Shown here: piece by piece, positions 7,935-15,662 of the stretch | Numbering within the stretch: position 1 is the first letter of the stretch | Layout of the letters: each line of letters starts with the position of its first letter | Origin: Actinomyces culturomici | GTDB lineage: Bacteria > Actinomycetota > Actinomycetes > Actinomycetales > Actinomycetaceae | NCBI RefSeq assembly: GCF_900499005.1 | Contig: NZ_LS991317.1 | Coordinates: 383,216-416,566, forward strand | Reading direction: 5' to 3' | Length of the DNA: 33,351 nt | Program-made: the position numbers and the translations under genes | Notes under the pieces: model-generated | Seen by the model: only the letters and a program-made list of their open reading frames with translations | Databases searched by the model: none | Told to the model about the DNA's origin: nothing

Positions 7935-8282
7935 ATGGACCTCTACGAAGTCCTCGACGGCGTTGAGATCGATATCGACGGCGTCCGCATGAAGGCCAGC
8001 GTCCAAGCCCTCAGGATCCTCCCCGCCATTCCCCGCATGATCGCCGACGGCTTCGGATGCTGGTACGACGACGGAAACAACCGCGAATGGATCGAGCACG
8101 ACTCGACCGTCACGATCGCCATCTACGGCGACACCCCCTACCCGAAGATCCCCCGCCTGTCCGGATCGCTCTACGACGAGATCCACGAGTTCCTCACCGA
8201 CTGCCGGAAGCATGAGATCCTGCCCATCGTTCGCATGATCGACGGTGTCATCACCCTTGAGGAAGAGACAGAAACCCTCTGA
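7935..8282 (+). CDS. Hypothetical 115-aa protein, probable moron
   Basis: Plus-strand gene inside the minus-strand early operon. ATG 7935 follows GAGGAGG by eight bases. The sequence is well mixed and protein-like: MDLYEVLDGVEIDIDGVRM, MIADGFGCWYDDGNNREWIEHD, STVTIAIYGDTPYPKIP, LYDEIHEFLTDCRKHEILP, ending in an acidic tail. No transmembrane segment or signal is seen, and no family is recognised. It shares its leader architecture with the gene at 7001, so both may be controlled together, perhaps from the prophage state. Confidence 0.7.
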   Translation: MDLYEVLDGVEIDIDGVRMKASVQALRILPAIPRMIADGFGCWYDDGNNREWIEHDSTVTIAIYGDTPYPKIPRLSGSLYDEIHEFLTDCRKHEILPIVRMIDGVITLEEETETL

Positions 8283-8516
8283 CAGAGCCGCGTCCAACTG
8301 GAACGTCAACGTCCTCAGAGAACGTGTCACCTCCACGACAGCCTCAAGCTCACGCTTAACATCAGCGGCCGAGGCGTCCAGGCCGTCCACGGACAGCCAG
8401 AACGAGCGCACACGCCGAACAATCTCCGCCTGCCAGACGCCAATCTCCTTGGACAACGCCAACGCCTTGGCAGCCTCAGCACCAGCGCGTAACTGCACAA
8501 CCTTTCGGGACTTCAT
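8283..8516 (-). CDS. N-terminal ORF, frame open into antisense of moron
   Basis: ATG 8516 overlaps the stop of the XRE gene (TGATG). The first ~78 residues (KSRKVVQLRAGAEAAKALALSKEIGVWQAEIVRRVRSFWLSVDGLDASAADVKRELEAVVEVTRSLRTL) look like a genuine helical phage protein. Beyond that the frame continues without stop through the antisense of the 7935-8282 gene to 7533. The end given is therefore only where plausible coding sequence stops. Either the original stop was lost when the cassette arrived, or a 327-residue protein is really made. Confidence 0.45.
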
Positions 8517-8893
8517 CACGCCACCGCCTTTGCCCGAGCGAGAAGATCCGCGAGGTTCTTCTCAATCCCGGCCACGTCAGCCGCGAGCGCCTTCGCCGTC
8601 TCCTGGAGCTTTTCGATGCGTCGTTCGAGCTTGCGGGATTCGGCGAGTGCTTCGGCTTCGTCGCGGTTGAAGTAGCCGTCGCGGACGATGGCGATCTGGG
8701 GGACCGCGAGCGCGTCGGCGATCTTGGCGACGAGGATGGGCGTGATCTGCTTAGCGCCCGACTCGATCATGGAGATGTACGGGCGTGAGATGAAGATGGC
8801 GTGCGCGAGCTGTTCCTGAGAGAGTCCGCGCGCTTCGCGAAGCGTGCGAATGGTCTCGCCGATTCGCTTTCGTTCCTGTTCGGTGACGCTCAT
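8516..8893 (-). CDS. XRE-family phage regulator (Cro/early side)
   Basis: 125 residues. An XRE helix-turn-helix spans about residues 8-62: RIGETIRTLREARGLSQEQLAHAIFISRPYISMIESGAKQITPILVAKIADALAVP. A C-terminal coiled coil (residues ~75-120, ESRKLERRIEKLQETAKALAADVAGIEKNLADLL) suggests dimerisation. ATG 8893 has no Shine-Dalgarno. A promoter with TTGACT, 17 bases and TATCGT ends seven bases before the ATG, so the mRNA would be leaderless. It is divergent from the second XRE gene and leads into the early operon, which suggests the Cro-like or early-control role; the reverse assignment is possible. Confidence 0.8.
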   Translation of the reverse strand: MSVTEQERKRIGETIRTLREARGLSQEQLAHAIFISRPYISMIESGAKQITPILVAKIADALAVPQIAIVRDGYFNRDEAEALAESRKLERRIEKLQETAKALAADVAGIEKNLADLLARAKAVA

Positions 8894-8900
8894 GGCGGTA

Positions 8901-8929
8901 ACGATAGTGACTGACCGTAACCGAGTCAA
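8901..8929 (-). promoter_or_regulatory. Promoter of the minus-strand XRE gene, leaderless
   Basis: Reading on the minus strand, TTGACT (8929-8924), a 17-base spacer and TATCGT (8906-8901) place the start site at about the A of ATG 8893. Two GTAAC half-sites (8898-8903 and 8917-8922) overlap this promoter. Confidence 0.65.
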
Positions 8930-9049: not shown

Positions 9050-9079
9050 TTGACGTTACCGACGAGTAACGTCCACTCT
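9050..9079 (+). promoter_or_regulatory. Promoter of the plus-strand XRE gene, leaderless
   Basis: TTGACG (9050-9055), 18 bases, then a weak -10 CACTCT (9074-9079), with ATG at 9086. The position mirrors the opposite promoter exactly: the -35 starts 36 bases before the ATG in both. The perfect inverted repeat at 9053-9072 overlaps it, so autorepression is likely. Confidence 0.55.
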
Positions 9080-9085
9080 TTCCAT

Positions 9086-9643
9086 ATGAGTAACGCCGAA
9101 GTGCTTGCGCAGCGTGTTCGTGCTCGTCGCCTCGAGCTCGGCATGACGACGGTCAAGGAGCTCGCGATCGCCGGCGGCTTCACGACGAAGACGGCGAGCA
9201 TCATCGAGAACGGGCATAAGGATTCGTTCCGTCCGGCGACGCTAGCCGCTCTCGATAGTGCCCTCGAGTGGGAGCAAGGTTCGTCGCAGGCGATCCTCGA
9301 CGGCGGGGAACCGACCCCTCTTGCCCCCTCTGGTGCGGCGCCCGGCTCCGTCCTCGTCGACGAAGGGTCCGCCGGCGTGCTCGCCGAGCTGCTCATCGGA
9401 GAGTCGGCCGACGTGCTTGACGAGGACGAGATCTCCGAGATCGAGTCCGTGGCTCGCGCCGCGGCGCTCAAGAGGAAGCGGGAGATCCTCGCCGCCCGGC
9501 CCGCTCGCCCGCTCGAGCTTGTCGACGGCGCCAGCGACGACGCCCCCGACTTCGAACGGCTCGCCGCACGCACCGTGCCTCGGCGACCCGGCTGGGACGC
9601 CTCACGCGCCGGCGACGATGCCGGCGAAGAACCGCAGGACTGA
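9086..9643 (+). CDS. XRE-like immunity repressor candidate
   Basis: 185 residues. The N-terminal HTH (about residues 3-70) reads EVLAQRVRARRLELGMTTVKELAIAGGFTTKTASIIENGHKDSFRPATLAALDSALEW, a form typical of actinobacterial prophage repressors. The rest is acidic and probably partly disordered (ELLIGESADVLDEDEISEIESVARAAALKRKREI). It is transcribed toward the lysogeny genes and the integrase end, from a promoter overlapped by a perfect operator palindrome. This suggests the maintenance repressor; the opposite role cannot be excluded. ATG 9086 has no Shine-Dalgarno, as expected for a leaderless transcript. Confidence 0.72.
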   Translation: MSNAEVLAQRVRARRLELGMTTVKELAIAGGFTTKTASIIENGHKDSFRPATLAALDSALEWEQGSSQAILDGGEPTPLAPSGAAPGSVLVDEGSAGVLAELLIGESADVLDEDEISEIESVARAAALKRKREILAARPARPLELVDGASDDAPDFERLAARTVPRRPGWDASRAGDDAGEEPQD

Positions 9644-9684: not shown

Positions 9685-10410
9685 ATGTCAACGCCGACAA
9701 CAGACGAAAGCTCGCCCCGTCCACCGTCGGAACTCGCTCCTCTCGCCAAAGCGCCCAAGGGCTCGCGCTACAAGGGCACCTACCGAACCGGCCTCGGCTG
9801 GTTCCTCGCCGTCCTGTGGCCATTCGGCCTCATCCAGTCCATCGTCAAGCACGACTCCATCGGATCGACGATCGTCACGCTGATCGTCTGGGCAGCAGTC
9901 GCCTTCTGGCTCATCAAGTGGGGCCGATCGTTGAAGGCGCAGAAGATCGTCGTCATCCCAAAGGCCCTCCGATCGACAGCACCCGGACGCGGCGCCCCGG
10001 AGCTCCAGCGCCTCATCGCCCAGTACGGCGAACGCGGCCGCATCTCCCTCTACGTCATGGACCGACATCTCCCCGCCATCGAGAAGCTCGCCGCGACTGC
10101 GACGAACTTCAAGCCCGGGCCCCTCGGCGGATCCGGAGCGCTCGTCGCCTGGGCCGACATCATCCCCGAGCCGAAGAACACCTACGACTCGAAGGCCATC
10201 CAGGCCCACGTCATGGGCCGGCCGGTCGCCTACTTCTCCCTCGAGTGGAAGGACCGCGCGCACGCCCAACTCCGCGCCAGCCACCACCGCGGCGCCCAAG
10301 TCCCCGTCGTCGTCAGGTGGTGGAACGGCAAAGCCTTCGTCTGGGCCTTCTCGACCTTCGAAGACGCCGAGTCCTTCGCGAACTGGGTAGTTGCCCGTGA
10401 CCAAAATTGA
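9685..10410 (+). CDS. Two-TM membrane protein with HIRAN-like C-terminal domain
   Basis: 241 residues. A cytoplasmic N-terminus precedes two transmembrane helices: GWFLAVLWPFGLIQSIV (about 38-55) and STIVTLIVWAAVAFWLIKW (about 62-80). The soluble part (about 90-241) contains IIPEPKNTYDSKAIQAHVMGRPVAYFSLEWKDRAHAQL, which resembles the NPYDPNAV...GYL...A core of HIRAN domains, known to bind DNA ends or be linked to damage and defence functions. This likeness is by eye. AGGA precedes ATG 9685. It lies 41 bases after the repressor gene and 18 before the ParB-like gene, probably one transcript. Confidence 0.65.
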   Translation: MSTPTTDESSPRPPSELAPLAKAPKGSRYKGTYRTGLGWFLAVLWPFGLIQSIVKHDSIGSTIVTLIVWAAVAFWLIKWGRSLKAQKIVVIPKALRSTAPGRGAPELQRLIAQYGERGRISLYVMDRHLPAIEKLAATATNFKPGPLGGSGALVAWADIIPEPKNTYDSKAIQAHVMGRPVAYFSLEWKDRAHAQLRASHHRGAQVPVVVRWWNGKAFVWAFSTFEDAESFANWVVARDQN

Positions 10411-10428: not shown

Positions 10429-11868
10429 ATGAGCAGCACTACTCGTACGGTGAAGGTTTCGTCCTTGCGTCTAGACTCCCAGAACCCTCGCCTCGGAGGA
10501 GAGATTGCGTCACAGGAGAGAATCTTCGCTGAGCTTCTCTCCACCGACGCGAGAATCCGAGAAATTGTCGAATTGGCTTCTTCCATAGTTAAACTCGGGG
10601 GTCTAGACCCGTCTCAGCTTCCTGTTGTTGTAGAAGAAGGCAGTGAGCTCGTCGTTATCGAAGGCAACCGTAGAATTGCGGCTCTCAAACTTCTCCTGCA
10701 GCCCAATCTTGCTCCTAACGAGAGGATCAAGCGTAGGTTCTCGAAAATAGCGATGGAGGGCTCGATCTCCCAGTCGGTGAGGGTCGTGCGCTTCGATTCG
10801 CGATCCGAATATGACTCATATCTGGTCCTGCGCCACACCGGCGAGAACAAAGGCGCCGGATTGAAGCCCTGGCGAAGTGCTGACATCGCGAGATTCCAAG
10901 AGCGGCAAGGAAAATCTCGGGCAATTCACACTGAGCTCATCGCCTGGTGTCGAGCCGAATTCGCTGACGATGAAGAGATGCTCAAGCTTGTCGAGACGAT
11001 CGAACAAGGCTACTTGACGACACTCAAACGCTTTCTCATGAAAGTAATCCGAGACCGTCTTGGGCTTCGATGGGCCGAGGGGAAACTGAGGGTCGAGTAC
11101 AGCGCCGCACAACTGCGCCCCTTCCTTAAGAGACTCTTTGTCGATCTGACCGGCAAGATGCCCAACGATCAACCGTGGTCACGAGCCCGCCAGGAGAACG
11201 TGCTCACCTACGTATACGAAACCCACCCGGATCTCCTACCATCCGAAGAAGAGAAAGCCCAGCCAGAGCCTGAGCCTGTGGCTGCCCATCCCGACGAGAA
11301 GACCTCTTCTGCCCCCGCAGCCAAGGAAGAGGTTGATCCTCGCTCCGCTTCACCGTCCATATCTTCCGATGAAAAAACTCAAAACCAAGCAAATGCGGGT
11401 AGCGCCCCCCAAACGCCGACTGCGATTCTCGAAGGCTTAGACCTGTCCGTCTTCGGTCAACGAATTAACAATATTCACATCCAAGCTCAGCGACTTCGGG
11501 TAGCGGCCTCACCGGACCTCTGCGGCATTGCACTACGAGTAATCCTTGAACTGTGCGTCGATGAATTCTGCAAACAAACCTCGATCGGCCGTCCGCGGGT
11601 CTTCGCAGATGCTGTCATCAAGGTTATTCAAACGATCGATCCGGAGGCTGTAAAGGGAGGGAATGCTCGAGGTAACCCTCTTGTCCCCATCTACCGGGAT
11701 TACAGGCGCAATGGTGCAGACCGTGGGTATGCCGCTGATAGGCTCCACGACTTCGTTCACTCCAGCACGCGCGTCGTCACAGCGGGTGAAGTTCTTCGCG
11801 AATCACAACAGCTCTCAGCACTGCTGGTGGCCATGAGCGAATATCTGCGCAATACTCAGACCCTATGA
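10429..11868 (+). CDS. ParB-like protein, candidate defence gene
   Basis: 479 residues with visibly lower GC and different codon use (AGA, ATT, GTT, AAA codons) than its neighbours, a sign of recent transfer. Residues about 8-95 match the ParB/sulfiredoxin-type fold: SSLRLDSQNPR, then LVVIEGNRRIAALKLL, where E78-G79-N80-R81-R82 is the nucleotide-binding signature. A helical middle (about 140-270, ADIARFQERQGKSRAIH...) precedes a disordered Glu/Pro/Ser linker (about 271-335). The C-terminal helical domain has LHDFVHSS, resembling HEPN-like domains. AGGAG sits six bases before the ATG. The stop overlaps the methylase start (ATGA), so the two are coupled. Function is inferred only. Confidence 0.72.
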   Translation: MSSTTRTVKVSSLRLDSQNPRLGGEIASQERIFAELLSTDARIREIVELASSIVKLGGLDPSQLPVVVEEGSELVVIEGNRRIAALKLLLQPNLAPNERIKRRFSKIAMEGSISQSVRVVRFDSRSEYDSYLVLRHTGENKGAGLKPWRSADIARFQERQGKSRAIHTELIAWCRAEFADDEEMLKLVETIEQGYLTTLKRFLMKVIRDRLGLRWAEGKLRVEYSAAQLRPFLKRLFVDLTGKMPNDQPWSRARQENVLTYVYETHPDLLPSEEEKAQPEPEPVAAHPDEKTSSAPAAKEEVDPRSASPSISSDEKTQNQANAGSAPQTPTAILEGLDLSVFGQRINNIHIQAQRLRVAASPDLCGIALRVILELCVDEFCKQTSIGRPRVFADAVIKVIQTIDPEAVKGGNARGNPLVPIYRDYRRNGADRGYAADRLHDFVHSSTRVVTAGEVLRESQQLSALLVAMSEYLRNTQTL

Positions 11869-12734
11869 GGAACCTATCGCCGCTTCGCTACCCCGGGGGC
11901 AAAGTGCGCCTCGCGCCCTTCTTCGCGCGGCTCCTTTCCATCCAGGAGCCCGTCCCTACTCGGTACGCGGAGCCTTTCGCCGGGGGTGCTGGCGCGGCCC
12001 TACGCCTCCTCGATGAAGGGCGCGTCTCCCACATCCACATCAACGACATTCACCCCGGCATCGCAGCCTTCTGGCGAAGCGTCACTACACAGCCCGAAGA
12101 ATTCATCGACCGTATCAGATCGACCGCCGTCACGATCGAGGAGTGGCACGCGCAGCGTGAGATCTTCGAGAGTGGGCCCAGCGACGACGACTTTTCGTTC
12201 GGCTTCGCCACCTTCTTCCTCAACCGCACCAATCGCTCCGGAATCCTGACCGCCCGCCCCATCGGAGGCCTCGCCCAGACCGGGAAATGGCTCATCGACG
12301 CGCGATACAACAAGGACGGCCTCATCTCACGAGTCCGCCGAATCGCAGAGCTCGCCGACCGAATCACCGTCACCGAACTCGACGCCCTCGACTTTCTCAA
12401 GACTATCGAGCACTTCGAAGACGATGTCCTCGTCTACGCCGACCCACCGTACGTCGTCCAGGGCAACAAGCTCTACCTCCACGCATTCAGCGCTGACGAC
12501 CACCGAGCCCTCGCAGACAAACTCCTGAACGCCCTCTATCCCTGGATCCTGACCTACGACGACGAACGCGTCATCTGGGAAGACCTCTACGGTGCTGAGC
12601 GCTGCGCCCGATTCAGCATCGCCCACACCGCCCAGAACAATCATGTCGGATCCGAAACCATCATCTACGGCCCCACTATCACTGTGCCCGGAACTCAAGA
12701 AATCACGCCCGGGCGCCGCGCCGACTGGGTTTAG
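11865..12734 (+). CDS. D12-class DNA adenine N6-methyltransferase
   Basis: 289 residues, normal length for the Dam/D12 family. It shows the family's ordered motifs: LRYPGGK (7-13), the SAM-binding motif I EPFAGGAGAALRLL (36-49), NDIHP (60-64), FLNRTNRSGI (118-127) and catalytic motif IV DPPY (193-196). The enzyme transfers methyl from SAM to adenine N6 in DNA; the target site cannot be read from sequence. ATG 11865 overlaps the ParB-like gene stop. The pairing suggests self-protection for a partner that attacks unmodified DNA, or protection of phage DNA against host restriction. It converges on the DUF3800 gene 19 bases away. Confidence 0.9.
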   Translation: MRNLSPLRYPGGKVRLAPFFARLLSIQEPVPTRYAEPFAGGAGAALRLLDEGRVSHIHINDIHPGIAAFWRSVTTQPEEFIDRIRSTAVTIEEWHAQREIFESGPSDDDFSFGFATFFLNRTNRSGILTARPIGGLAQTGKWLIDARYNKDGLISRVRRIAELADRITVTELDALDFLKTIEHFEDDVLVYADPPYVVQGNKLYLHAFSADDHRALADKLLNALYPWILTYDDERVIWEDLYGAERCARFSIAHTAQNNHVGSETIIYGPTITVPGTQEITPGRRADWV

Positions 12735-12753
12735 CTCGAAAGAATCCGACCGA

Positions 12754-13638
12754 TCAGCGTGATGAAGTGATCATGGCGTCGCGAATGCTCTGGGTCATGT
12801 GTGCCCCGTGATGGATAGCGGAAGCGCGTTCTGACGTGCTCCATTTGCGCGTGTGCTTGATCGCCTTGGCGCTGACAGGCCTTTCCTGCGAGGGGAGCCA
12901 GATCCTCGACTCATCAAGCGTTCGCTCGTTAAACACCGCCCCGAAGACGCTGGGGGCCCATGAGAATTCGTCAGAATCAGAGAAGTGGAAGTGAGTGGCG
13001 CGCGAAGCGATCGCGCACATCCAATCCGCGAACTGCACTGCCCCGTACCTGTGGCTCTCCAATTCCATCGGCACCTCGACGATTCGCTTCATCGACGGGT
13101 CGGGGGAGGCGTAGATGAATTGCGCGAGACTCGTGATCGCCTCCTCGCGGGGCATGGGTCCTCCTTTGTCGAGGAAGATCGTGAGATTCTCTCCGCGAAG
13201 ATCCGCATATCGGCACAAGCGGCGAACCGACTCAGTCAGGATCGCTCGCGTTCGATCAGCCGCACTCTGCCCTGTCTCCTTCTCCGTGCCGACTGGTTTC
13301 TCTTCGCCGTAGAAGAAAATCTTCCCGCCGAGCCTTGTCATGTAGTCCGCGAGATCGGAGATGAAATCGACCCTCTCCGGATACTTGCTGTAGGCGCCGG
13401 TCGTGAACATCTCAGCGCCCTTCTTCTCCCAGCGTCGAGGATGCTTCCCGGTCTTGACGATCTCCGACCTGAACTGTCGAGCCTTAACCTGCTCGAACTT
13501 CGCACCGAAAGGGCGAATCGCGGCCTCTGGCAACACGATCCCCGCATACCCGAACAGGGGGTGATCCTTGAATTTCTTGTGCGCCGTGCTGATGTACGGG
13601 CCTACGTGCCCGAACTCATCCAGATACGCGACAATCAC
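12754..13638 (-). CDS. DUF3800 family protein
   Basis: 294 residues from GTG 13638, preceded by GGGGGAGG with a short 4-base spacing. It has the DUF3800 marks: N-terminal strand IVAYLDEFGHVGPYI with acidic D7-E8, a central FLDKGG strand, and a C-terminal YGAVQFADWMCAIASRA where the ADxxxG-type helix normally sits. The family is predicted to have an RNase H-like fold with acidic residues, and its members often sit in prophages and near defence genes; activity is not established. It is convergent with the methylase and divergent from the ImmA/IrrE-type gene, so it has its own promoter. Confidence 0.85.
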   Translation of the reverse strand: MIVAYLDEFGHVGPYISTAHKKFKDHPLFGYAGIVLPEAAIRPFGAKFEQVKARQFRSEIVKTGKHPRRWEKKGAEMFTTGAYSKYPERVDFISDLADYMTRLGGKIFFYGEEKPVGTEKETGQSAADRTRAILTESVRRLCRYADLRGENLTIFLDKGGPMPREEAITSLAQFIYASPDPSMKRIVEVPMELESHRYGAVQFADWMCAIASRATHFHFSDSDEFSWAPSVFGAVFNERTLDESRIWLPSQERPVSAKAIKHTRKWSTSERASAIHHGAHMTQSIRDAMITSSR

Positions 13639-13745
13639 GTGACCTCCCCCAGATATGCGCGGAGGGCAGCCCAAGGCTGCCCTCCGGAGTTGGCGCGTGG
13701 TCCGCAAAGGAACTGCTACCCGCAACGCATGCTATTGACCGACAA

Positions 13746-13786
13746 GCGAGTGCGTCAAGCTGTCCTGGCAGCTCCTGCGCACTCGC
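13746..13786. repeat. Nested perfect inverted repeat in 13639-13827 gap
   Basis: GCGAGTGCG (13746-13754) pairs with CGCACTCGC (13778-13786), and inside it AGCTG (13758-13762) pairs with CAGCT (13769-13773). The whole can fold as a two-tier stem of 9 plus 5 pairs with a 6-base loop. No T-run follows, so it is not a standard terminator. A TTGACC lies just upstream (13735-13740). It may be an operator for the ImmA/IrrE-type gene or a small structured RNA. The rest of the gap shows nothing else. Confidence 0.6.
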
Positions 13787-13827
13787 AGTTCCCCCACATG
13801 CCCATGCCCCCGCGTATCCTCGCGCGC

Positions 13828-14244
13828 ATGTGGCACCCCTGGAAGGCCCTCCGCGAGCGCCTCGACCTCGCCCTCATCTGGACCGAGAACCTCCCGCGCA
13901 ACGTCCTGGGCGCCACTGATGGAACCCGCATATGGATGACCCCACGTCAGCTCCAAGCGGAACGGCGATGCACGCTCACCCACGAGCTCATCCACGTGGA
14001 ACGCGGACACGCCGGCTGCCAGCCTCCGGCCGTCGAACTCGAGGTCCGCGTCGAAGCAGCCCGCCGGCTCATCCCCTTCGACGACCTCGTCCGCGCGTGC
14101 CTCTGGGCCCGCGGCCCCCAAGAGCTCGCCGACGAACTCTGGGTCGATGAGGCCACCCTCGACGACAGGCTCACGCACCTCACCGAGGACGAGCGCACGG
14201 AGATCAACGCGGCGCTCGCCAGAAGGGACGCGCGCGACGCTTAG
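13828..14244 (+). CDS. ImmA/IrrE-type zinc metallopeptidase
   Basis: 138 residues from ATG 13828. The zinc motif HELIH is at residues 52-56 (THELIHVERGH), preceded by TRIWMTPRQLQAERRCTL as in the DUF955/IrrE family. A C-terminal part carries an HTH-like stretch (ELADELWVDEATLDDRLTHL). ImmA proteases cleave phage or ICE repressors to trigger induction; the XRE gene at 9086 would be the expected partner, although it is 4 kb away. No Shine-Dalgarno is present. TATCCT (13815-13820) ends seven bases before ATG 13828, suggesting a leaderless transcript. In-frame ATGs at 13798 and 13804 are alternatives. The stop overlaps the integrase stop on the other strand. Confidence 0.82.
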   Translation: MWHPWKALRERLDLALIWTENLPRNVLGATDGTRIWMTPRQLQAERRCTLTHELIHVERGHAGCQPPAVELEVRVEAARRLIPFDDLVRACLWARGPQELADELWVDEATLDDRLTHLTEDERTEINAALARRDARDA

Positions 14245-15437
14245 CCTGCCGCCGGCAGCAACTGGGGGAGCGCGGTCGCCATCGCCATCTCCGTCGCGTC
14301 GGCCGCGATTCTGCCGGCGTCGGGGACGAGGTGCCCGTACACGTTGACGGTCGTCTCTATCGACTCGTGGCCCATCCTGTACTGGACGATGTGAATCGGG
14401 ACCCCGGCACCCAGGAGCATCGACGCGTGCGTGTGCCGTAGATCGTGAATCCTCGGGCGCGGATCGAGCTTCGCCTTCGCGATCGCCTTCGCCCACACGT
14501 TCTCGGAGAACCACTCCGGCCGCAGCCTGCCCCCGTTCGGCCCCTGGAAGACGAGCCCCTTGCCCGCCGAGGCCGCGAGCGCCTCGAGCTCGTCGACGAG
14601 TGAGCGGGGGAGTGAGACCGTGCGCTTCGACTTCTTCGACTTCGGTGGTCCGATGTGATGGCCGGTCTTGCCGCGCTTCCAGGCGCGCTCGACGCGGACT
14701 GTGGGCGGTGTCGAGTCGAAGTCGAAGTCGGAGGCGTACAGGGCCGTCGCTTCGCCCCAGCGCAGGCCCGTGGCGAGGAGGAAGGCGACGAGTGTTTGCC
14801 ACCGGGCTGGTGTCGCGCTGAGGAGGTCGAGGCGCTGCCTCGTCGTGAGGAAGACGGGGCTGCGCTTCTGGTGAGCGGCCGGCAGGCGGACGCCCTTGGC
14901 CGGATTGCGCGCGAGGGCGCCGGAGTCGACCTGGAGGGAGAGGACCGAGGAGAAGAGCCCCTGGATGTTCGCGATCGTCTTCGTCGACAGGTAGTCCGGC
15001 TCGACGGTCTTGTCGCGCTTTCGGCGCCGGATGGAGGGGAGGGTCTCCTTCTTGCGCAGTGACGCGATCCACTTCTCGACCTGCGGCCGTCCGACCTGCC
15101 CGATCGGCCAGTCGTCGAAGGTCGGGCCGATGTGCAGGGCCCAGGTCGTCTCGTACTTGGCGACCGTGCCCTCCTCGGCGTAGGAGGAGACGTGGTCGAC
15201 GAACTGGGTGAAGGCGTCGCGGCAGGTGAGGACTCCCTCGTCGCCCGCGAGCGTCGTTGCCTCGCGGATCTGGCGCGCCGCGAGTGGGCCGACGCGGTCG
15301 ATGAGGGCGCAGAAGGCGAGCGCCTCCCTGTAGGTGTCGAAACGGTCCGAGGTCGGCGTGCCACCGGGGGTGAGCCTGTACTGGACCCGGAAGAGAACGG
15401 CGCCGCCCTTCGTGCGTACGGGTGACGGAGTGGGCAT
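14241..15437 (-). CDS. int: Tyrosine-recombinase integrase
   Basis: 398 residues from ATG 15437 (GAGG nine bases upstream; ATG 15461 would add eight residues). An N-terminal arm-binding region is followed by a SAM-like core-binding domain (about 75-170, FTQFVDHVSSYAEEGTVAKYETTWALHIGP) and the catalytic domain. The catalytic set is complete: R in TGLRWGEA (226), H and R in HDLRHTHAS (331, 334), H in GHESIET (357) and nucleophile Y in VYGH (367). It integrates and excises the prophage at the adjacent tRNA-Leu gene. It is convergent with the ImmA/IrrE-type gene; the two stop codons overlap. Confidence 0.95.
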   Translation of the reverse strand: MPTPSPVRTKGGAVLFRVQYRLTPGGTPTSDRFDTYREALAFCALIDRVGPLAARQIREATTLAGDEGVLTCRDAFTQFVDHVSSYAEEGTVAKYETTWALHIGPTFDDWPIGQVGRPQVEKWIASLRKKETLPSIRRRKRDKTVEPDYLSTKTIANIQGLFSSVLSLQVDSGALARNPAKGVRLPAAHQKRSPVFLTTRQRLDLLSATPARWQTLVAFLLATGLRWGEATALYASDFDFDSTPPTVRVERAWKRGKTGHHIGPPKSKKSKRTVSLPRSLVDELEALAASAGKGLVFQGPNGGRLRPEWFSENVWAKAIAKAKLDPRPRIHDLRHTHASMLLGAGVPIHIVQYRMGHESIETTVNVYGHLVPDAGRIAADATEMAMATALPQLLPAAG

Positions 15438-15462
15438 GGTGAACCGCCTCGCAAAGGCCATC

Positions 15463-15575: not shown

Positions 15576-15610
15576 TGGTGCGCGAGAGGGGAGTTGAACC
15601 CCTACCCCAT
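15576..15610. other. Probable attR/attL core within the tRNA 3' half
   Basis: By analogy with other tRNA-targeted tyrosine integrases, the crossover core should be the 3' part of the tRNA (T arm to CCA). The partner copy would lie beyond the left edge, so the exact limits cannot be read here. Confidence 0.45.
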
Positions 15611-15662
15611 CACTGGGACACGGACCTGAACCGTGCGCGTCTGCCTATTCCGCCACTCGCGC
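15576..15662 (-). tRNA. tRNA-Leu (CAG)
   Basis: Minus-strand cloverleaf. The acceptor stem GCGCGAG pairs with CTCGCGC, with discriminator A and encoded CCA (15576-15578). The anticodon stem CACGG/CCGTG encloses loop TTCAGGT, giving anticodon CAG. A long variable arm (about CCCAGTGATGGGG) marks a class II leucine tRNA, and the T arm has GTTCAACTC. The 3' end faces the integrase, the usual geometry for a prophage inserted in a tRNA, with the phage copy restoring the 3' sequence. Confidence 0.95.

Follow-up and report, generated by a model that had tools for sequence, protein, structure and literature searches.

A ParB-like protein and an adenine methylase in an Actinomyces culturomici prophage very probably form a divergent PD-λ-5 defence system

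The prophage locus described here raises the question of what a ParB-like protein does beside a DNA adenine methylase, and which of the neighbouring genes act with the two. The locus lies in a stretch of 33,351 nt from Actinomyces culturomici (contig NZ_LS991317.1 of assembly GCF_900499005.1, positions 383,216–416,566 of the forward strand), called the window throughout, which contains one end of a prophage. Within it the gene of the ParB-like protein (A) overlaps by ATGA that of a D12-class N6-adenine DNA methyltransferase (B), and a DUF3800 gene converges on B at a distance of 19 bases (Table 1). The original prediction for this DNA had taken all three genes for a candidate defence module of the prophage and knew of no described system with such a pair. 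Judged from its sequence, the pair is of an already known kind, and the window copy is a divergent PD-λ-5.

Both proteins match the models of that system over nearly their whole length: A matches PADLOC PDLC03999 (PD-Lambda-5_A) at 6.7e-103 over residues 3–477 of 479, and B matches PDLC04018 (PD-Lambda-5_B) at 4.2e-108 over residues 3–279 of 289. Their genes are adjacent and overlapping, as befits the two-gene unit of PD-λ-5. The best 25 of the 26 PADLOC families that match A are all PD-Lambda-5_A; none of these 25 is a restriction enzyme, and among them no recognisable restriction endonuclease in A was found. A also matches phrog_9592 of PHROG (2.5e-51), and a Pfam scan of the window's A gave no match. 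B matches Pfam MethyltransfD12 (PF02086) at 1.4e-14 and retains its methylase motifs, including a DPPY. It appears close to certain from these matches that A and B make up a PD-λ-5 system, one that the integrated phage carries as cargo in the slot bounded by its repressor and integrase. The idea of a defence module in the prophage is upheld by them, and the belief that the pair had no described counterpart has to be given up.

PD-λ-5 is a two-gene system that was obtained by functional selection and protects Escherichia coli, in which the cloned genes changed the plating or plaque size of all the phages tested but one; it was assayed in a host without the mrr region and was termed a compact restriction-modification plus abortive-infection (RM+Abi) system (PMC9519451). 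The use of a host lacking mrr might be explained if PD-λ-5 methylation triggers Mrr. PD-Lambda-5 and one other system are reported to be the most frequent on prophages in Actinobacteria (PMC10482375), and PD-Lambda-5 is included in a list of HEPN systems (PMC11811056). The accessible text of the journal literature naming the system, a body that excludes bioRxiv preprints, states no mechanism for it. The window's locus shares with PD-λ-5 (PMC9519451) the same two proteins, the prophage setting and the near full-length model matches. An identical A (100% identity) occurs in the IMG/VR viral record L001, which is the same prophage. A near search by DNA for the E. coli locus in which PD-λ-5 was first found gave no match, and three distant DNA searches for it returned, among the matches listed, only methylases (in 36, 99 and 76 genomes).

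The constancy of the pair was followed in relatives that were gathered by A itself and not by the methylase. These comprised 80 loci kept of 160 viral contigs, 20 genome regions and 8 of 20 phage or plasmid matches, plus the window; once copies at 90% identity had been discarded, the set contained 66 A proteins that possess the C-terminal domain described below, the window's included. B is adjacent downstream of A in 62 of these 66 (50 on the same strand, 12 convergent); two of the remaining four are cut by the end of the locus (L064 and L068) and two are exceptions (L055 and L106). Among 27 A-like proteins without a detected C-terminal domain, a group that includes some fragments and two proteins longer than 500 aa whose C-terminus may have diverged, B lies within 200 bases in two, two are cut and 23 lack B at that distance. 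In 213 genomes of the same family the A model matches 26 and the B model 26, with 24 genomes common to both and A and B on one contig in every one of these; open frames place them side by side in 23, the other (G056) having a gap of 1.6 kb. The two genomes with A only carry a short or fragmentary A, and in the two with B only no A was seen within flanks of 1.5 kb. Over 60 pairs the distance matrices of A and B correlate with a Spearman coefficient of 0.57, against a maximum of 0.17 in 1000 permutations that ignore phylogeny. The relatives, as far as their sequences go, support A and B as a dedicated pair, in keeping with the original prediction, and an A harmful on its own would be expected to occur rarely without B, as observed. 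Homologues never found with methylases, or a C-terminal domain like that of a partition or replication protein, had been named beforehand as grounds for abandoning a defence pair; homologues do co-occur with methylases and the C-terminus resembles DUF4145/HEPN, and both outcomes favour the pair.

Several of the gathered loci hold arrangements of their own. A relatives are also located on plasmids. In three loci (L170, L171 and L172, from G120, G164 and G141) a shorter second ParB-like protein, A', overlaps the end of B to give an A-B-A' variant; a C-terminal domain was not detected in these three A' proteins. At 7965–10286 of L123, A is apparently split into N-terminal and C-terminal reading frames 5' of B. 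In the Vibrio phage locus L055 (1–3284) the convergent downstream neighbour of A bears the annotation of a type II restriction enzyme, and a type II methylase is annotated at the other end of the same linear phage record (L217, 4891–5751). The closest relative of the window's A adjoins a type I RM locus, the restriction subunit of which is matched in two successive open reading frames (ORFs) (L034, 4787–13949).

The layout of A suggests how such a pair may work. A ParB-like N-terminal domain is followed by a middle region, a low-complexity linker rich in P, E, A and S (around residues 270–335) and a HEPN/DUF4145-like C-terminal domain. The N-terminal domain carries EGNRR, at the position of the GxxR P-motif of the ParB nucleoside triphosphatase (NTPase) fold. 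All five residues are invariant in the 40 rows of one alignment of A (A2), and G79 and R82 are also invariant in the 21 rows of another (A1), in which E78 is replaced by D in some rows. In the members of the ParB fold that have been tested, the Arg of GxxR is needed for nucleotide binding (PMC12704722).

The C-terminal domain was compared with known families through an alignment of 38 such domains (A3), in which Arg370 and His444 are the two residues invariant in 38 of 38, at identities of 10–25% to the window's domain. Against 24 DUF4145 sequences hhalign gives a probability of 87.0 and a score of 40.1, where one reversed and five shuffled controls reach a score of at most 12.1 and a probability of at most 0.26; against 5 DUF4145 sequences the probability is 62.7 and the score 32.1, with controls at 0.5 or less. 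No score above 17.2 was reached by sixteen other families, B and the short A family among them, compared with the 32.1 and 40.1 for DUF4145, and the highest control score anywhere is 18.4 at a probability of 2.0 (reversed A3 against Abi_C). When the 38 domains were run against 24736 Pfam models, the only matches by more than one member were to DUF5677 (three members, best 5.7e-4) and DUF4145 (two members, best 0.0032); Csm6 HEPN is among the single-member matches, and the window's own domain matched none of the models. DUF4145 is assigned to the HEPN superfamily (PMC3710099), so that by its profile the C-terminal domain of A resembles a HEPN family. Three other assignments were set aside: Abi_C, with a score of 11.9, does no better than the controls and is represented by only four sequences; DUF5677, at a score of 24.0 and a probability of 8.0, is above the controls and weak; and two gene families found beside short A proteins, considered as separate carriers of the C-terminal domain, score 11.2 and 11.8.

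We propose the following course of events. B would methylate adenines wherever its recognition sites occur in host or prophage DNA, and A would scan DNA by means of its nucleotide-binding ParB domain, staying quiet where the DNA is methylated. Unmethylated DNA of an incoming phage would alter A in its nucleoside triphosphate (NTP) or DNA state, whereupon its C-terminal domain would be activated and stop the infection, probably by cutting RNA. Family membership, the near-constant pairing, the methylase motifs, the GxxR and the HEPN/DUF4145-like domain with Arg370 and His444 can be read from the sequences themselves. We give the whole reading, in which methylation marks self, the ParB domain senses and the HEPN-like part of A is the effector, an even chance; it is mostly inferred. 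Of its parts, methylation as a self-mark for A seems rather probable, our confidence in it having been lowered a little by the A without B in L055, and RNA cleavage of the HEPN type as the effector step falls slightly short of even.

Several findings weigh against this reading. The full-length A of L055 has no neighbouring B, and the 349-aa A of L106 has a shortened C-terminal match and its B 351 bases further on. The co-occurrence of A and B has a hypergeometric value of 3e-27 that, like the permutation figures, ignores phylogeny. Pfam ParB_N has no match in the window's A, matches one of the 40 members of A2 at E≤0.01 and stays below the cut-off in four listed relatives; in the PDB the A2 profile finds only weak matches, including one to a ParB-like chain (E 0.17). 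The classical HEPN motif Rx4-6H is missing in 33 of the 38 C-terminal domains, which have neither R nor K at positions -5 to -7 of His444, where four others have Lys and the window protein alone has Arg; the domain may therefore be inactive, and it has also been noted that some HEPN families may use other residues (PMC3710099). The confident part of the DUF4145 profile alignment is the Arg helix, the His being aligned in a low-confidence extension. Finally, the window allele differs from PD-λ-5 as described in having diverged, its A being 41% identical to the closest relative found (L034), and in its place beside a DUF3800 gene in a repressor–integrase slot; its activity is a prediction from sequence.

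Some of these facts would sit as well with a compact DNA restriction-modification system, in which unmethylated DNA would be nicked or cut by the ParB-like domain, the C-terminal domain serving only to keep A in one piece or to bind DNA. A methylase is the near-constant partner of A, PMC12839542 cites nicking activity in ParB/Srx proteins, and the classical HEPN motif is mostly lost. The PADLOC matches of A, as far as its best 25 of 26 families go, include no restriction enzyme, however, and the invariance of Arg370 and His444 across such distant domains suggests more than a scaffold; we regard this alternative as somewhat unlikely. It is improbable, to a clearly greater degree, that A regulates or guides B and that the pair shields phage DNA from host restriction instead of defending the host. 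The prophage location would suit such a role, and fusions of ParB folds with methyltransferases are enriched in prophages, where anti-defence roles have been suggested for them (PMC12704722). Against it, cloned PD-λ-5 lowers the plating or plaque size of most of the phages tested in E. coli (PMC9519451), and relatives occur also on plasmids and beside the type I RM locus of L034.

The original prediction had a third partner in the module, and a three-component system with the DUF3800 protein as nuclease effector has in its favour the convergent gene so close to B and the RNase H fold predicted for DUF3800 (PMC10910872). The neighbourhood survey, which bore out a conserved linkage of A to the methylase, found none to DUF3800. 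Such a gene is near A in 2 of 29 A-bearing genomes, namely the window's own and G009 (3.6 kb off), a count that may overlook neighbours where contigs are short (5.9 kb in G080, for instance); in seven other A-bearing genomes it lies elsewhere or on another contig. Among 50 records it was seen near A in one, which is the viral copy of this prophage, and among 37 further records in none, a plasmid match there lying far from A; apart from that copy, the 86 records of these two sets, fragments among them, do not have it near A. L062 and L063 keep the order A, B, metallo-protease, recombinase (the last recognised by eye in L063) without DUF3800; relatives of the metallo-protease stand directly 3' of B, with nothing of DUF3800 size between. 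Two genes alone protect in the PD-λ-5 of E. coli (PMC9519451). DUF3800 as a third component, very improbable on this evidence, was rejected for its unconserved linkage and for the order in L062 and L063; it is on the same grounds probably a separate cargo gene outside the PD-λ-5 pair.

Table 1. Coordinates of the features in the window (positions counted from its first letter)
Feature	Position	Strand	Basis or remark
A, predicted PD-Lambda-5_A, 479 aa	10429–11868	+	PADLOC PDLC03999
EGNRR, residues 78–82 of A	10660–10674	+	GxxR P-motif position of the ParB NTPase fold
C-terminal domain, residues 338–479 of A	11440–11865	+	hhalign against DUF4145
R370-V-I-L-E374 of A	11536–11550	+	R370 invariant; aligns with the Arg of the DUF4145 aRxxLE helix
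F442-V-H444 (FVH) of A	11752–11760	+	H444 invariant
B, predicted PD-Lambda-5_B, D12-class N6-adenine DNA methyltransferase, 289 aa	11865–12734	+	PADLOC PDLC04018; Pfam PF02086
DPPY motif of B	12441–12452		
DUF3800 gene	12754–13725 (TTG ORF); alternative GTG start 13638	-	Pfam PF12686, 1.9e-10
Helix-turn-helix (HTH) repressor, one edge of the cargo slot	8516–8929	-	Pfam HTH_3 (PF01381), 5.1e-14
Tyrosine integrase of the carrier prophage, other edge of the cargo slot	14241–15461	-	Pfam Phage_integrase (PF00589), 4.7e-21
tRNA-Leu, beside the integrase	15576–15662		
Metallo-protease gene, between DUF3800 and integrase	13756–14244	+	phrog_87, 2.8e-19; weak M78 Pfam match below the cut-off
Two genes 5' of A	9050–9643 and 9685–10410	+	

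The description of the locus that accompanied the original prediction held up on recheck in its coordinates, the EGNRR, FVH and DPPY motifs, the linker, the ATGA overlap and the 19-base spacing; it made no mention of the two genes 5' of A or of the metallo-protease gene. The GC content of A is lower, as had been said, at 0.549 against 0.688 for the whole window (B 0.622, DUF3800 0.589), and Pfam HTH_3 and Phage_integrase matches on either side confirm the place of the block between repressor and integrase. The metallo-protease and the HTH repressor that flank the cargo presumably resemble ImmA/ImmR. None of the nine ORFs tested to the left of A has a PHROG match. The two genes 5' of A are closely spaced and possibly form one operon with it; the product of the second (9685–10410) looks HIRAN-like by eye and had no match in a Pfam scan, and its match to REase_II (0.0027) is weak and was treated as chance. 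Neither gene has an ORF match in loci L033–L140 except in the copy of the same prophage, and as conserved partners of A they are unsupported.

Parts of this picture have precedents. A 2013 catalogue already contains proteins in which HEPN is fused to ParB, as well as HEPN genes that share operons with genes for ParB and methylases (Anantharaman et al. 2013, PMC3710099), and the labelling of PD-Lambda-5 as HEPN has also been published. A is like these fusions in joining a ParB-type to a HEPN-like domain in RM-like contexts, but its family mostly lacks the classical Rx4-6H. For one example of the fusions, Saro_3948 (PMC3710099), the A2 profile found no match in plasmid pNL2, the replicon that carries Saro_3948 being uncertain. 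RNases of the PrrC/RloC type (PMC3710099) may offer a parallel, a nucleotide-sensing domain restraining a HEPN RNase and PrrC standing beside a DNA-modification system; A differs from them in a sensor of ParB type rather than ABC type and in having no separate restriction enzyme. Short ParB-like phage proteins with separate methylases (e.g., vB_EcoM-12474III, L053) share a related ParB domain and differ in an extra gene of about 330 aa, with no HEPN-like domain detected in them. In L053 (4968–8037), a P2-like E. coli phage, the short ParB-like protein, which also matches PDC-M38A, is accompanied by a 330-aa protein and, encoded on the opposite strand, by a C5-type methylase.

The methylase of the pair also occurs in other company. 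In four E. coli loci that were opened, three of them near copies, a B-family methylase stands beside an AAA-ATPase gene with no ParB-like partner, and two of these methylases, scanned against PDLC04018, match at 8.7e-122 and 5.8e-124. The loci are prophage-like (L196, 3928–6488; L197; L198, 2022–4734; L199), and their AAA ATPase has matches of GajA/PtuA type and, by eye, a Toprim-like motif. Outside the set of 213 genomes B is thus not exclusive to A, which fits B as the self-marking part of systems with exchangeable effectors.

An apparently undescribed pair is now assigned to PD-λ-5, with R82, R370, E374 and H444 as candidate residues for its mechanism. We suggest, tentatively, that PD-λ-5 may be a minimal two-protein "RNA restriction" composed of a methylase self-mark, a ParB-type NTP switch and a HEPN-like RNase with a moved active site, in which Arg370 on a neighbouring helix would stand in for the Arg that Rx4-6H has lost. 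The methylase family would serve other effectors too, such as the AAA-ATPase in E. coli prophages, and is possibly shared between different effectors.

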